64,000 nt of DNA from Marinobacter sp. LA51 (GTDB lineage: Bacteria > Pseudomonadota > Gammaproteobacteria > Pseudomonadales > Oleiphilaceae), in the NCBI RefSeq assembly GCF_030297175.1, contig NZ_AP028070.1, forward strand, positions 2,170,001-2,234,000. The letters are read 5' to 3'. Within the stretch, counting starts at the first letter, position 1. Each line of letters begins with the position of its first letter. Positions 58,419-64,000 of this stretch are shown here, piece by piece. The notes beneath the pieces were generated by a model that made no database searches, was not told the DNA's origin, and saw nothing but the letters and a program-made list of their open reading frames with translations. Made by a program: the position numbers and the translations under genes.

Positions 58419-58436
58419 CCCCCATGGGTCAGTCTT
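58411..58436. terminator. Hairpin containing both stop codons of convergent genes
   Basis: A perfect 11-base stem AAGACTGACCC/GGGTCAGTCTT around CCAT. The stop codon of the deacetylase lies in the left arm and that of the convergent lipoprotein gene in the right arm. No long T run, so likely weak or double-stranded-RNA terminator. Confidence 0.6.
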
Positions 58437-59514
58437 GCTCCACCATCTTGAGCCCCACCTCGCCTTCGGTGACGTGGGGTATGACCTTCGGTTTTCTGCC
58501 AGCGCCGGTCTCAATCACGGTTTGACCGGCAAGGTCTGCGCTGCGGGTATAGAGCACTACCCAACGCTCGCCTAGGCCGGGAAAAACCGGCACCCAGGCC
58601 TCAAGAAAACCCCGTCGACTCCAGGTCTCTGGCTCATAGGGGGTAACGAGATCGGTAACCAGCCGTACGGGTTCAAAGTTCCGGTCCAGAAACGCCAATG
58701 AAGGTACGAAGACGCCGTTCTGGGCGTAGGACCGTATTCTCATGATGAAATCCGGCCCCTGCGCCACACTGTCCAGGTCAACCAACTGATAAGGGCTGAT
58801 TCCGGTCAGAAAATTGTGGGTTGGCGACAGCTCGGTAACATTGACCCCGAACTCCCGCCCCTGCTGCCATTGCACCGCGTCCCGAGTCTCCAGGCCCAGA
58901 CAGCAGAACTCACGAAATCGTTCGAAATAGTCACCGCCGCCTTCAATACCGAGGACGGCGTATGCGTCGAGCCCCTCCTGATTATCCGTCTGGACTGGTT
59001 CAATATCGGGTCCGCTGTGGTAGACGCTGGCCGGAGTGAGTTCAATTGGCGGAGCGATGAAGCCCTTTTCGACATCACTGCGGGTATCCGGTTGAAAGTA
59101 ACTCACCCGGACATTGCCCTGGGCGTCACGCCAGGTGAAATAGGGTTGGCGTTCGCCCGGGCGGACATAGCCGTCTTTCGCCAGTTCGTTGGCGTCTGGA
59201 TAATTCTCCAGGGTGAACTCAGTCTCCTCGCTCGCTGACGAGACAGTGCCCCCTGCGTCCTCGGCGGGCGCTGCAGCGGCATTGGACTCAGCCGTTTTTG
59301 GCTGTCCAGCACCAGCGGAATCCGGAGCTGATTCCTTGGCCGGTGTCTGGTCGGAAGTGGCAACGATCGGCGAATAACGCACCCGCCCCTGCTCGTCCAC
59401 CCAGGTGTAATAGCCCTCCCGTTCAGAGACGGTGGAACCACCCAGCTGGCAACCGCCAAGCACGGTCGCCAAGCCCCAAATCATTATGTTTGTTGCCAGC
59501 GTGGGTCTGCTCAT
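58429..59514 (-). CDS. Lipoprotein with two TWxD repeats (FilE-like)
   Basis: A 361-residue lipoprotein: the signal peptide ends in the lipobox VLGGC (Cys22). Two related repeats, YYTWVDEQGRVRYS (about 36-49) and YFTWRDAQGNVRVSYF (about 124-139), resemble the DUF4124 motif. Between them is an Ala/Glu/Ser-rich, probably disordered linker (about 55-100). The remaining 200 residues form an unassigned domain with a CC pair in REFCCLGL. It is the last gene of the minus-strand cluster headed by the C39 peptidase. I recall Acinetobacter 'FilE' proteins of this sort, but have no way to confirm it. Confidence 0.75.
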   Translation of the reverse strand: MSRPTLATNIMIWGLATVLGGCQLGGSTVSEREGYYTWVDEQGRVRYSPIVATSDQTPAKESAPDSAGAGQPKTAESNAAAAPAEDAGGTVSSASEETEFTLENYPDANELAKDGYVRPGERQPYFTWRDAQGNVRVSYFQPDTRSDVEKGFIAPPIELTPASVYHSGPDIEPVQTDNQEGLDAYAVLGIEGGGDYFERFREFCCLGLETRDAVQWQQGREFGVNVTELSPTHNFLTGISPYQLVDLDSVAQGPDFIMRIRSYAQNGVFVPSLAFLDRNFEPVRLVTDLVTPYEPETWSRRGFLEAWVPVFPGLGERWVVLYTRSADLAGQTVIETGAGRKPKVIPHVTEGEVGLKMVEQD

Positions 59515-59549
59515 TGTGAAGGGGTACCCCGGTGTTACTCGTCAGCCGA

Positions 59550-61175
59550 TCAGAATTTGGTCCGAAAACTCAGGCCGGCCAATACGACCCGAAGCGAGGT
59601 TTTCACGTCGAGCCCCGCATAAGGGTTGTAGATGATGTTGGTGATATTGTCACAGTTTAGATTACAACTGGTGTTCGCAGGAACGGTTTCAATCGACTGC
59701 AAATAGCTCAGGTTCAGGTCAATCTCGGTGTCTTTATCCCAGCGATACCCCATCCCGATGCTGTAGAGGTTGGCACCACCAAACGGAGCCATGATGGAGC
59801 GCTGATCGTCAGGGATGACGGAGTCACGTATTTCCACCCCCGCCCTCAGATCCAACCGCGAAGACGCATGAAACTCGGCGCCAAAGGCCCAATTCCACTG
59901 GCTTTTGAAACCCAGGGGCAGGCGCAGGGTGTTTGATGTGGCGTTATCCGGAGAAAGAATTTTGGCGGCGTTCAGGAATTCCAGATTACGGTCGAACCGG
60001 AACACAAACGCATCCCACTGGGCGTAGTCGGTCCAGCCAATGTCCGCATTGAGTGTCAGTTTCGGGTGTACATCCACACTGATGCCAGTCTGGAAATGCT
60101 GGGGGTACACCAGATTCATGCTGACATTACCGGCTTCCCGGGGCGCGCCGGATGGCAAGCTGAGAATGGCCGAAGTGATGGCACCCAGCACCGAGCCATT
60201 GAGTCCTTGCCAAAACCCCGACCAGTCGTCGGTGTACTCGATTTCAAAGGAGCCCTTGAGGTTCATGTCGGCTTCGGAGGTGTAACTGGCGCCCCAGCGG
60301 AACCAGTCCGTGGGCTCCCACATCACACCCAGGGCATAGGTGGGCGACAGGGTTTCCTGGACATTGATACTCAAAGCTCCGATGTCATCCCAAGGACCGA
60401 TGTTACCGCCACACAGGGCCAGCCAGGGCTGCAGTGGCTCATCTCCGCTCTCGCAGTTGAAGGCGCCCTGCAGTATCTCGGCCACCCCCAGCAACATGTT
60501 GGGTGCCCGCATGTACTGATCTGCTGCGATCCCCATGTGGGACAAATGGATACCCGCCCCCACGGACCAGTGATCGTTGATTTCGTAGCCAACTGTGGGT
60601 GACAGGTAGGTAGTACGCTGCAGCGCCGTCGCCTGCGGCTGATACCGGCCCGGGTCGTCCTTGTCGCGGTAAAACCCGGCCGCCAGAGGCAGATAGAAGG
60701 CATTGCCAAAGGTCAGTTTGGAGCCAGGCGGGTTGATACTGATACCCGCCGAGGGGGCAACCGCAGGTCCTGGTGGCGCCCGCAGTATGCCGTAACCGGG
60801 CACATACAGGGCGACGTTATTGGTGTGACTGTGGGTATTGGCGACCGGATCTCTCTGTCTGCCCGTCAGCGGATCCGTTTCCAAGCCATCAATACCGAAA
60901 ATCTCATAGCCATCCGGCGCGTGGAAATCGGCATCGATATCCAGATACACGTTCATCAGGGTGACTTCCAGCTGACGCCCGTCCAGCTTGGTGAGTCCCG
61001 CCGGGTTGTAATGAATCGCCATGATACCTGGCGGATCCGCCGTCACCGCATTACCCAACGCCAGTGCCTTGGGGTGGATAGTGAGATTCTGTGCGAGCTG
61101 GGCCTCGGCACCACACGCGATGGTCGAGGCAATCAACGCCGCGAGAATCTGCCTTTTGTGGCTTATGTGTCCCAT
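59550..61175 (-). CDS. FadL-family outer-membrane channel
   Basis: A 541-residue outer-membrane protein. After a signal peptide (ending ACGAEAQ) it has the FadL-type N-terminal HPKALALGNAVTADPPGIMAIHYNPAGL region, with the NPA motif that starts the plug, then a predicted 14-strand barrel ending in an aromatic C-terminus (GLSFRTKF). FadL proteins let hydrophobic molecules such as long-chain fatty acids cross the outer membrane. At 541 residues it is longer than E. coli FadL (about 420 mature). AAGGA lies 4 bases before the ATG. M. hydrocarbonoclasticus uses a FadL homologue, AupA, in alkane uptake; whether this is its orthologue is unknown. Confidence 0.85.
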   Translation of the reverse strand: MGHISHKRQILAALIASTIACGAEAQLAQNLTIHPKALALGNAVTADPPGIMAIHYNPAGLTKLDGRQLEVTLMNVYLDIDADFHAPDGYEIFGIDGLETDPLTGRQRDPVANTHSHTNNVALYVPGYGILRAPPGPAVAPSAGISINPPGSKLTFGNAFYLPLAAGFYRDKDDPGRYQPQATALQRTTYLSPTVGYEINDHWSVGAGIHLSHMGIAADQYMRAPNMLLGVAEILQGAFNCESGDEPLQPWLALCGGNIGPWDDIGALSINVQETLSPTYALGVMWEPTDWFRWGASYTSEADMNLKGSFEIEYTDDWSGFWQGLNGSVLGAITSAILSLPSGAPREAGNVSMNLVYPQHFQTGISVDVHPKLTLNADIGWTDYAQWDAFVFRFDRNLEFLNAAKILSPDNATSNTLRLPLGFKSQWNWAFGAEFHASSRLDLRAGVEIRDSVIPDDQRSIMAPFGGANLYSIGMGYRWDKDTEIDLNLSYLQSIETVPANTSCNLNCDNITNIIYNPYAGLDVKTSLRVVLAGLSFRTKF

Positions 61176-61213
61176 GAAGTCCTTCCCTTCCCGTAAAACG
61201 TCGACGGCACCAA

Positions 61214-62224
61214 TCACTCTTTGAGGCCGGAGAAATTAATGGGCAGGGATACACCCAGGGAGAAGTCCGGGGCATCCTCGGTCAAACCGATACCAAGGCT
61301 GGTATTCACAATGGTGGTGTCACTGACCCGGGTGCCCAGCGACATACTCAGGAAGCCGGTCATCTGGTCCTGGGCCACCGCCTCGTCACCGTTGCTGAAG
61401 GTCAGTATCGTTTCATCGTTGTAGCTCAGCTGGGCAGAGATACTGAGGGAGATGTCGTAAGACAGGGAGTAGGCAAAACCGGCCGAACCCGACAGGCCAA
61501 AACCGGGACTCACCTTGACTAGCCGCCGGGCGCCACGAACCTGGTCCAGACCGTCGACCTCAAAGTTGTAGGTCAGGCTCGTAGAGCCAAACACCACCAC
61601 CGGATCCAGCACCTTGGAGAGACTCAGGCCACCAGACAGCGAGTAATAACCACTACCGGTGGACAACTGCTCCTTGATATCAATTTCATAGGGGCTTACG
61701 CCGGTCTTGGAAGTGAAGGTGCTGAACAGCGTGGTGGACATCTTACCCGGTACATAGGCAAACGGCTGCCAGCGCCCGGTAAAGGAGATATCACCGAAGT
61801 CGTACACAGTGAGCTCATCCTGAGAGTCGTATTTCACTACCAAAGGAACACGGGTACCAACGGTCAGGTTGTCCAGAAGACCGTAGTCGTAGGAAAAGGC
61901 ATTGGTGAAGTTGTGAGTGGCCGAGGGAACCACATCCAGATTCTCCACCGAGTTGTCCGAAATGCTCAAATCAATACGCTGATCAGCGGTATAGGAGTAA
62001 TCAAACGAATAGGTCAGGGAGTGAGTCCCTTTCTTCTGCAGCGAATAATTCTTCTCCGCAGCCTGGAACACCTCCTCCAACTGGCGGGATGAATCCTCAT
62101 CGCCCTCCTGCTTGGCCAGGGCTTCCCGCGCCTGGTCCACATTTCCTTCCTGCGCCAGGGCCATGCCCGGAAGCAGTCCTGCCGTGGAAACAAGGATAAC
62201 GCCTCGCGCAAACCAACGATTCAT
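61214..62224 (-). CDS. Secreted beta-barrel-like outer-membrane protein (FilC-like)
   Basis: A 336-residue protein with a signal peptide (about 1-25, MALAQ) and a charged helical segment (about 30-65, EDSSRQLEEVFQAAEKNYS). About 270 residues of alternating hydrophobic strands follow (HSLTYSFDYSYT, FAYSLSYDISLSISAQL), ending in SLPINFSG, as in outer-membrane beta barrels of the transporter/meta-pathway phenol-degradation-like group. It starts 53 bases after the C39 peptidase and is followed 38 bases later by the FadL gene, so it is the second gene of the cluster. Function unknown. Confidence 0.75.
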   Translation of the reverse strand: MNRWFARGVILVSTAGLLPGMALAQEGNVDQAREALAKQEGDEDSSRQLEEVFQAAEKNYSLQKKGTHSLTYSFDYSYTADQRIDLSISDNSVENLDVVPSATHNFTNAFSYDYGLLDNLTVGTRVPLVVKYDSQDELTVYDFGDISFTGRWQPFAYVPGKMSTTLFSTFTSKTGVSPYEIDIKEQLSTGSGYYSLSGGLSLSKVLDPVVVFGSTSLTYNFEVDGLDQVRGARRLVKVSPGFGLSGSAGFAYSLSYDISLSISAQLSYNDETILTFSNGDEAVAQDQMTGFLSMSLGTRVSDTTIVNTSLGIGLTEDAPDFSLGVSLPINFSGLKE

Positions 62225-62258
62225 CCTGACTCCCTTATCTTATTTTTAGTTTCCTGGC

Positions 62259-62274
62259 CCGGGTATGAACCCGG
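62259..62274. other. Small intercistronic hairpin
   Basis: CCGGGT-ATGA-ACCCGG, a perfect 6-base stem between the C39 peptidase gene and the beta-barrel gene. On the minus-strand transcript it could act as an attenuator or mRNA processing signal; no T run follows. Confidence 0.4.
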
Positions 62275-62277
62275 AAA

Positions 62278-63078
62278 TTAGTTGCGACGGTAGTGCAGCT
62301 GTTTTCTTGTGTTCTCGACACTGCCGTCGGGATTGTTTTTCTGGCGTTCCAGCAAGTTCTGGATTCGTCTTTCGGTTGCCTCGTGGAACGCTGGAATTCG
62401 TTCCAGTGCCAGCAGGGTCATGGTCTGGTCGTCAACGAAACGCAGGTCTTCCTCTTTCAGTTCGAGGTTATCCAGTGGCTTGTCACTGCCCGGGAAGACA
62501 ATGAACAGCACGTTGTCGTCCCATTTGTCCTCAAACTCCGACAACAGGAAGGAAATATTCCCCACCGACGGATCGGCCAGGTACACCCGGCCATCCCGGA
62601 TCGTTCGCAGCACCACAAAATGCTTGAAACCGGCATGATTGATTGGAACGATGGCGGGGTGGTCCAGATCCTTCAGGTCGTCGATCGATGCCCGGAAGCC
62701 GCCAGAGGGGTACCCCAGAGCGGTAACGAGACGCTTCATATCCAGCATCGAAAAGGCACGGCGCTCAACAATGCGTTCGCTTTCTCCGTAATGGAGCAGC
62801 CCCTCCATCACCTGTCGCTCTGACAGGCTTCGCCCGAGGTAGAAATTGAGCACCGTGGTGAGTGCGGCACTGCCGCAGCTGTAGTCGTAGGCCTGCCGAA
62901 CGATGTTCCGGTACTTCTGCTCAACCAACGGCTCTACCCGGGTATCGAAACGCAGCAACACCGGCCCTGAGTCCACGTCCTGTTCGATAACAACGCTGCC
63001 CTTTTCAAACGGCTCCACCACGGTGGCTTCCTGCACCATGGTGAATGTAAGAATGGATCCGGCGAGCACCAGCAGCAT
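62278..63078 (-). CDS. Membrane-anchored C39 family cysteine peptidase (FilB-like)
   Basis: A 266-residue protein beginning with a short hydrophobic segment (MLLVLAGSILTFTMV) that should act as a signal anchor. Residues 55-175 form a C39 papain-like peptidase with a full active site: Gln62 and Cys68 in QAYDYSCGSAAL, His153 in FKHFVVLR and Asp169 in YLADPSVGN. C39 domains usually sit on ABC exporters and cut leader peptides after a double glycine; here no ABC exporter or leader peptide is nearby. A charged C-terminal tail (about 215-266) follows. First gene of the minus-strand cluster. Confidence 0.85.
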   Translation of the reverse strand: MLLVLAGSILTFTMVQEATVVEPFEKGSVVIEQDVDSGPVLLRFDTRVEPLVEQKYRNIVRQAYDYSCGSAALTTVLNFYLGRSLSERQVMEGLLHYGESERIVERRAFSMLDMKRLVTALGYPSGGFRASIDDLKDLDHPAIVPINHAGFKHFVVLRTIRDGRVYLADPSVGNISFLLSEFEDKWDDNVLFIVFPGSDKPLDNLELKEEDLRFVDDQTMTLLALERIPAFHEATERRIQNLLERQKNNPDGSVENTRKQLHYRRN

Positions 63079-63120
63079 GTCAGACGAAGTCCCTGTTTTT
63101 ATTGGCCATAATAATTTGGG

Positions 63121-63135
63121 GTTACACGTTGTAAC
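63121..63135. promoter_or_regulatory. Perfect palindrome upstream of the C39 gene
   Basis: GTTACA-CGT-TGTAAC, a 6-3-6 inverted repeat 43 bases upstream of the peptidase start and about 190 bases upstream of the divergent regulator gene. On the minus strand a TATTAT lies 15 bases downstream of TTACAA within it, so it may overlap a -35 box. Confidence 0.5.
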
Positions 63136-63258
63136 GGTAAGATACCGAAAAGCCTCCGCCCTGAAAGATAACTGTGCCTCAAATCTGTAGCCGCAGGCGC
63201 CGCCCCCTGGATCGGTTGTGAGAACTGGTTCAAGGCTTGGTTAGTGACCGCGGCATAA

Positions 63259-63270
63259 GTTGACGTCAAC
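63259..63270. promoter_or_regulatory. Perfect palindrome upstream of the MalT-like regulator
   Basis: GTTGACGTCAAC, a 12-base palindrome 55 bases before the regulator start codon. It may be an operator or part of its promoter (TTGACG can serve as a -35 box). Confidence 0.4.
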
Positions 63271-63324
63271 CGCCAAAGCGGGTATCAACGCGGATGAGCT
63301 CTCCACTTCCAGATGTAGATCCTG

Positions 63325-64000
63325 ATGACAACAACTCTTAATCCGGGACTGACTACCTTTATCGCGGCCAAGAACGCGCCCCCCCAGGCACCCACTGCAC
63401 TTTTGCCAAGGGAAGCATTTAACGATTTCCTGCAGGATCTGGGGCCGGTCAAATTGCTGCTGGTGCATGCACCAGCTGGTTATGGAAAGACCACTACAGT
63501 AGCCGAGCGACTTGAGGCTCTGGAGCTGAACTCCGCCTGGTACAGGCTTGAGGCCAGCGATAACGACCCGACCCGCTTCGGCAGTTATCTAGCTAATGCC
63601 CTGAATCTGACCACCGCGGGCGGCTGCCAGAATACGCTCCAGACCCTGAGGGACACCGGATTCGAGAGTCTCGAAGCACTGGTTACCAGCCTGCTGACGG
63701 AGCTGGTTCCGGGGGAAAAACCCTTATTCCTGGTGCTGGACGACTACCACCTGATTACTAACCAGGAAATCCATGAAGCAATTCGCTTTCTGCTGAGGCA
63801 TCTACCGGTTAACCAGCACCTGGTGCTGGTGAGCCGAACCCTGCCGCCCATCGGCGTGGCCCAGCTCCGGATGCAAGGACTGCTCGTCGAAATCACCAGC
63901 CGGGACCTCGCCTTCGGTGCCGACGAAGCACAGGCATACCTGGAGAATCGCCTTCCATTTGAACTGTCTCGCGAAAGCATTGAGCGCGCAGTGCGGAGGG
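63325..64000 (+). CDS. MalT/LuxR-family ATP-dependent regulator, N-terminal part
   Basis: The reading frame from ATG at 63325 stays open to the window edge (225 codons). It has the STAND ATPase features of MalT-type activators: PREAFNDFLQDLG, Walker A HAPAGYGKTTT near residue 53, Walker B LFLVLDDYHLI near 143, and the SRTLPPIGVAQLRMQGLLVEI region, which matches the MalT pattern of a small residue block between Walker B and sensor 1. The C-terminal repeat and LuxR DNA-binding domains would lie beyond the edge. Divergent from the C39/FadL cluster, so it is the likely regulator of it. Confidence 0.88.
   Translation, partial: MTTTLNPGLTTFIAAKNAPPQAPTALLPREAFNDFLQDLGPVKLLLVHAPAGYGKTTTVAERLEALELNSAWYRLEASDNDPTRFGSYLANALNLTTAGGCQNTLQTLRDTGFESLEALVTSLLTELVPGEKPLFLVLDDYHLITNQEIHEAIRFLLRHLPVNQHLVLVSRTLPPIGVAQLRMQGLLVEITSRDLAFGADEAQAYLENRLPFELSRESIERAVRR

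Follow-up and report, generated by a model that had tools for sequence, protein, structure and literature searches.

Gene content of the cluster

The analysed window, a stretch of 64,000 nucleotides from the 3.77-Mb genome of Marinobacter sp. LA51 (contig NZ_AP028070.1, positions 2,170,001 to 2,234,000; G000:C1:2170001-2234000), ends in four co-directional genes and a divergent regulator gene (Table 1). All five open reading frames reported in a preliminary description, made from the sequence alone, were recovered. The four genes encode homologues of FilB, FilC, and FilD of the Acinetobacter fil locus and a lipoprotein, and are probably the central part of a secretion pathway of the Fil type (FapD/FapF-like), whose substrates would be precursors of the DUF6160 family.

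Table 1 Genes and features of the fil-like cluster (positions within the window; aa, amino acids; match values are E-values unless given in bits)
Feature	Position	Strand	Matches or conservation
filB-like membrane-anchored C39 peptidase, 266 aa	62278..63078	-	Pfam PF03412 2.2e-18; NCBIfam FilB 4.6e-80, FapD 1.7e-35
filC-like FapF-family outer-membrane polypeptide exporter, 336 aa	61214..62224	-	NCBIfam FilC 3.2e-100, FapF 2.4e-20
filD-like FadL/TodX-family outer-membrane channel, 555 aa	59550..61217	-	Pfam PF03349 3.6e-70; NCBIfam FilD 1.5e-165
Lipoprotein, 361 aa, lipobox Cys22	58429..59514	-	Pfam PF07148 (MalM) 1e-10, PF13511 (DUF4124) 7.8e-8
MalT-like STAND/LuxR-type regulator, N-terminal part	63325..64000	+	NCBIfam MalT 1088 bits; Pfam TPR_MalT and GerE
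22-bp element upstream of filB	63165..63186	-	Exact in 70/81 related loci

FilB, FilC, and FilD were the best NCBIfam matches of the first three proteins, each under its curated cut-off (269 of 475, 336 of 630, and 552 of 970 bits, respectively), consistent with the earlier remark that the gene order recalls the Acinetobacter Fil loci. FapD and FapF ranked second for the FilB-like and FilC-like proteins. The C39 catalytic residues of the FilB-like protein, already described as complete (Gln62, Cys68, His153, and Asp169), were invariant in 21/21 aligned proteins (20 FilB and one FapD-like), and a FilB profile matched the C39 domains of peptidase-containing ATP-binding cassette (ABC) transporters (PCATs) in PDB, e.g., 6mpz (2.5e-8). 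The FilC-like barrel belongs with the FapF polypeptide exporters: besides its NCBIfam FilC and FapF matches, a profile built from 20 FilC proteins only, which replaced for this search an earlier one that included a FapF-like row, matched FapF and nothing else in PDB (3.8e-26), and the first 18 Foldseek matches of its structure model (predicted local distance difference test score, pLDDT, 73.5) were all FapF. Although homologous, it falls far under the cut-off of the FapF equivalog (73 of 700 bits).

Several relatives of the FilD-like protein begin 14 codons later, and relatives align from residue 15. In the lipoprotein, the TWxD repeats of the preliminary description come down to a pair of motifs (residues 37 and 127), the first of which lies within the DUF4124 match (residues 34-85); the MalM domain spans residues 258-335, and an NCBIfam scan returned no FilE or FilF match for this protein. 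The regulator is completed beyond the window (L005 7325-10081) and is, as proposed, of MalT type, with a full length of 918 aa.

Conservation of the cluster and the role of the FadL channel

The cluster was compared with 20 relatives fetched across the order, drawn from the 40 genomes that matched filC strongly (see below), and with 80 named loci, mostly from Marinobacter, which are the best 80 of 516 confirmed loci. The genes filB, filC, and filD stand together in 20/20 order-wide and 80/80 named loci, and the lipoprotein gene accompanies them in 15 and 79 of these, respectively, the one exception among the named loci being a 5.9-kb contig. By contrast, the MalT-like regulator gene was found in only 4/20 and 17/80 loci. 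The five-gene linkage anticipated from the single sequence therefore holds for four genes, while the fifth is usually unlinked and the regulator is not a constant partner. Loci with 99% FilB identity occur in M. alexandrii LZ-8, M. sediminum R65, and M. similis A3d10.

The presence of a FadL-family gene in all 100 loci compared could also suggest that the cluster is an Aup-like system for the uptake of hydrophobic compounds, with the FadL channel as its core and the other genes in a supporting role. In M. hydrocarbonoclasticus, the two-gene operon aupAB, which pairs a FadL protein with a long protein of the inner membrane, is reported to serve alkane uptake (PMC5989066), and cells of Acinetobacter Tol 5 on triacylglycerol are described as covered by abundant long, curved fibres presumed to be Fil (PMC3498257). 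The likeness to AupA/AupB lies in the FadL-family outer-membrane protein; its partner here is a 361-aa lipoprotein, not a protein the size of AupB (at least 640 aa, given the 1,920 bp of aupB deleted in PMC5989066), a distinction drawn from the description of AupB rather than from its sequence. Genome G429, from outside the order, carries filB-filC with no filD within 15 kb around them (L190), and because of this arrangement we do not retain the lipid channel as the core of the system, as had been supposed. Moreover, a FapF-type exporter next to a peptidase suits export better than uptake, and the LA51 genome has two other FadL-family places (three in all). We regard an uptake system as very unlikely.

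DUF6160 proteins as candidate substrates

The FilA model had one match elsewhere in the genome, and DUF6160 (Pfam PF19657), which covers the start of FilA, matched three genomic places above cut-off. Two of these encode adjacent proteins of 298 and 263 aa about 220 kb from the cluster; the third lies at a distance of about 330 kb and encodes a protein of 295 aa. A leader profile detected no further clear leader protein in this genome (next E 0.046). In these proteins a 15-16-residue leader directly follows a Sec signal peptide. Elsewhere, precursors sharing the leader span 97 to 2,064 aa, G429 and G541 have at least 15 DUF6160 matches each (15 candidates scored), and several genomes carry four leader genes in tandem, an arrangement that the DUF6160 search did not find in the LA51 genome. 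In 12/20 order-wide loci, the 2 kb upstream of filB contain a leader gene in the same orientation, and in an A. baumannii record filA is found there; in LA51, no filA was found in the 246-bp gap between filB and the regulator gene or beside it.

Of 293 genomes drawn order-wide, 40 matched filC strongly (E below 1e-40) and 12 had weak, FapF-like matches only. DUF6160 was detected in 38/40, 0/12, and 1/241 of the strong, weak, and other genomes, respectively. A second draw, made across the class (321 genomes, with E below 1e-50 counted as strong filC), gave 6/6, 0/28, and 0/287, with two of the six shared with the first draw. The split between strong and weak matches was chosen after seeing the E-values, none of which falls between 7e-46 and 1e-25 in the first draw or between 2e-58 and 1e-24 in the second. 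Neither filC nor DUF6160 is present in two genomes that belong to the same genus as the window. Across the surveyed genomes, the machine and the leader-tagged proteins thus nearly always co-occur.

Further leader proteins were seen in other arrangements. Tandem sets in L078, L079, L080, L081, L082, L087, L088, and L095 comprise four different leader proteins of roughly 400, 360-580, 180-230, and 800 aa that are not linked to filB, several of the sets lying near contig ends. Scattered over G429 and G541 (L183-L199) are genes for secreted proteins of only 97 to 246 aa, in which the DUF6160 leader precedes differing sequences. Adjoining FilA-like genes, L076:5371-5988 (+) encodes a 205-aa secreted protein with no Pfam match, the start of which resembles a degenerate leader without Gly (E 0.058).

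Anatomy of the leader

Leader statistics are based on 94 distinct leaders from the fetched loci, aligned with MAFFT without motif picking, and supersede earlier ones (89 rows, 8 left out) in which the register was partly set by motif. A second set comprises 27 leaders from outside the order (G429, G541, and G500). In the main set, residues at -15, -12, and -7 are hydrophobic (LIMVF) in 94/94 leaders and the residue at -4 in 76/94; Gly occupies -2 in 90/94, and position -1 (P1) is Gln in 74/94 and Ala in 9/94, with a single Gly-Gly leader (L049). An A-x-A-like motif at -19/-17 (Ala in 43/94 and 65/94) would leave 15-16 residues after the signal peptidase has acted. Leaders from outside the order follow the same pattern, with hydrophobic residues at -15, -12, and -7 in 27/27 each and at -4 in 26/27, Gly at -2 in 27/27, Gln at -1 in 25/27, and Glu at -8 in 15/27.

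A register of -12/-7/-4/-2 and the corresponding contacts in the peptidase groove have been published for the double-glycine leaders of C39 peptidases (PMC6363468, PMC6959990). Judged from the alignments, the register of the DUF6160 leader is that of double-glycine leaders cut by C39 peptidases: both sets share the hydrophobic -12/-7/-4 residues and the Gly at -2. The small P1 residue (Gly/Ala/Ser) of double-glycine leaders is not shared, as reflected in the Gln counts given above. The preliminary description had stressed that a C39 peptidase without an ABC exporter or a double-glycine substrate would be unusual; the cluster indeed contains no ABC transporter, but a double-glycine-type substrate class is encoded outside the window. 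Since the fitting leader sits on these DUF6160/FilA proteins, the linker of the lipoprotein, also put forward as a possible C39 target, finds no support in that role.

Alternatively, the start of DUF6160 could be an N-terminal assembly motif retained in fibre subunits and never cleaved, with FilB acting on another target such as FilC, much as FapF has been considered a possible target of FapD (PMC5557850). Gln at P1 is atypical for C39 enzymes, and in FilA-type proteins conservation continues past the putative cut site to about +5. Yet the register fits the C39 groove contacts exactly, P1 shows natural Ala and Gly variants, and in the set from outside the order conservation falls after the site and downstream sequences differ. 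A common assembly motif is also hard to reconcile with the size range of the precursors, and we consider this explanation unlikely.

Several observations nevertheless weigh against DUF6160 proteins being cleaved and exported substrates of the cluster. The main one is Gln at P1, which is unusual since solved C39 domains are reported to have a narrow site preferring small residues (PMC6959990, PMC6363468). Because both leader sets were gathered with a profile seeded on eight leaders, all with TGQ, Gln was also favoured at P1 by the search itself. The conservation to about +5 in FilA-type proteins means that the conserved block is partly not leader-specific, and four of the 94 leaders have Ala at -2, including that of the 263-aa paralogue of LA51. 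On the genomic side, no leader gene was found in the flanks covered for the 80 named loci; the strong-filC genomes G058 and G145 (89% and 65% complete) lack a DUF6160 match, G057 has a weak DUF6160 match without filC, and the DUF6160 matches of G301, in the second draw, are under the cut-off. The Fisher p-value for the first draw (3.5e-44; 38/40 vs. 1/253) is uncorrected for descent. We infer rather than observe periplasmic cleavage, the exact bond cut, export through FilC, and the roles of FilD and the lipoprotein.

Comparison with Fil, Fap, and PCAT systems

The cluster shares with Acinetobacter filABCDEF the order of its filB, filC, and filD homologues, as well as FilA-like proteins with the same leader encoded in the genome. 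It differs in that filA is unlinked (the FilA-like genes being about 220 and 330 kb off) and in that a lipoprotein with DUF4124 and MalM domains replaces FilE and FilF, both of which are present in the A. baumannii comparison record. With the Pseudomonas Fap system it shares a FapF-family barrel and a periplasmic-type C39 peptidase that is not part of an ABC transporter and retains all its catalytic residues, whereas its substrates would carry DUF6160 leaders and its partners are a FadL channel and a lipoprotein; none of the four window genes scanned matched FapA, FapB, FapC, or FapE in NCBIfam. The likeness to PCATs (ComA, LahT, and PCAT1) extends to the C39 catalytic domain and the -12/-7/-4/-2 leader register, but here the cluster has no ABC transporter, the leader stands behind a Sec signal peptide, and P1 is mostly Gln. 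Overall, we class the cluster as a Fap-type pathway variant, and its new part is the substrate code linking it to DUF6160.

The LA51 genome also harbours a separate Fap-like locus (L008:8270-11810; G000:C1 about 3293270-3296810), in which a second C39 protein (FapD 3.1e-42) and a FapF-like barrel (3.7e-44) flank a weakly FapE-like protein (0.0027). The latter begins with a signal peptide followed by PLSDTELASLRGG, in the exact published register with Gly-Gly. Given the kinship of FilB and FilC with FapD and FapF, and a beta-rich FilA structure model (pLDDT 73), FilA fibres might be regarded as a strict functional amyloid of the Fap kind, i.e., cross-beta fibres exported as unfolded chains. We find this highly improbable: the one FilA-like protein scanned in NCBIfam had no Fap-subunit match, the genome keeps its Fap-like locus apart, and DUF6160 is missing from all genomes with only FapF-like barrels in both draws.

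Two crude leader scans of the same 21 FapF-like loci each returned 5/21, compared with 4/80 (all four seemingly frames inside filC) and 1/80 for the control flanks. Leaders with [L/M]RGG before Phe were seen in six of the 21 loci (L008, L208, L211, L216, L218, and L220; L206 was dropped by eye), with a clear signal peptide only in L008, L211, L216, and L220. Gly-Gly leaders across Fap loci would be a lead only.

Proposed secretion pathway

In the pathway that we propose, precursors carrying a Sec signal peptide and the C39-type leader would reach the periplasm via Sec, where signal peptidase would take off the first tag. With the leader placed behind a Sec signal peptide, processing would therefore be periplasmic: membrane-anchored FilB would dock the leader by residues -4, -7, and -12 (perhaps also -15) and cleave directly behind the Gly-Gln (Gly-Ala, Gly-Gly) site. 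FilC, the FapF-like barrel, would then let the freed chain out to the cell surface, and FilA-type subunits would form fibres there. FapD provides a precedent, as it is described as periplasmic and its active-site Cys as needed for FapC secretion; the same report calls the target of FapD unclear and favours FapE (PMC5557850). FilA of Acinetobacter Tol 5 has been termed the fibre-forming subunit of the Fil pilus (PMC11784438, PMC3498257), and FilC and FilF are reported as increased in biofilms of A. baumannii SDF (PMC8792954).

Accessory roles seem likely for FilD and the lipoprotein, which may attach the fibre to interfaces between lipid and water. The envelope-spanning lipid or peptide system of the preliminary description was, in its peptide version, close to this outcome, while a lipid link of Fil fibres is possible. 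Within Marinobacter (window vs. L096-L175), the lipoprotein often shows 47-57% identity, vs. 85-93% for FilB, FilC, and FilD; such a much faster divergence would suit a surface-exposed part.

Beyond this locus, we lean slightly towards a broader reading in which FilB and FilC constitute a general two-step pathway with its own code, a Sec signal followed by a Gly-Gln C39 leader, serving diverse and scattered secreted proteins, and in which Fap would be a sister branch with FapD cutting a Gly-Gly leader on FapE-like proteins. The titles and abstracts of the open-licence PMC papers searched did not describe DUF6160 as a C39 leader or name a substrate of FilB, and the searchable open-licence PMC text yielded a single paper containing the word DUF6160, as a name in a list. 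FilB, a relative of FapD, gains a concrete and testable candidate substrate class and cut site. If the proposal is correct, DUF6160, a family of unknown function, would be given a role, the "putative pilus" Fil locus of Acinetobacter would become a mechanistic model, and exported surface proteins would be predictable from sequence alone.

Additional features of fil and C39 loci

In A. baumannii NZ_CP077849.1 (L224:7995-8834), an in-frame stop interrupts filB, while filA, filC, filD, filE, and filF are open. Two loci from 5.4- and 6.0-Mb genomes (L067 and L070) combine a short FilA-like gene (145 and 151 aa, respectively) with filBCD and a MalM-type lipoprotein gene, and have two MalT-like genes further upstream of this set, an arrangement that we take to resemble PA1759-PA1765 of P. 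aeruginosa.

The Fap-like locus of LA51 also encodes a D/N/S-repeat protein and another small protein, the start of which resembles a leader and ends in Gly-Arg. Two more places with a C39 domain occur in this genome, at G000:C1:1140429-1140803 and 3308306-3308689, within open frames 332 and 712 aa long, respectively. The 22-bp element upstream of filB is single-copy in the genome, and the region around it (63108-63245) contains the conserved dyads GAACCAGTTC, CGGTATCTTACCG, and GTTACA-N3-TGTAAC.

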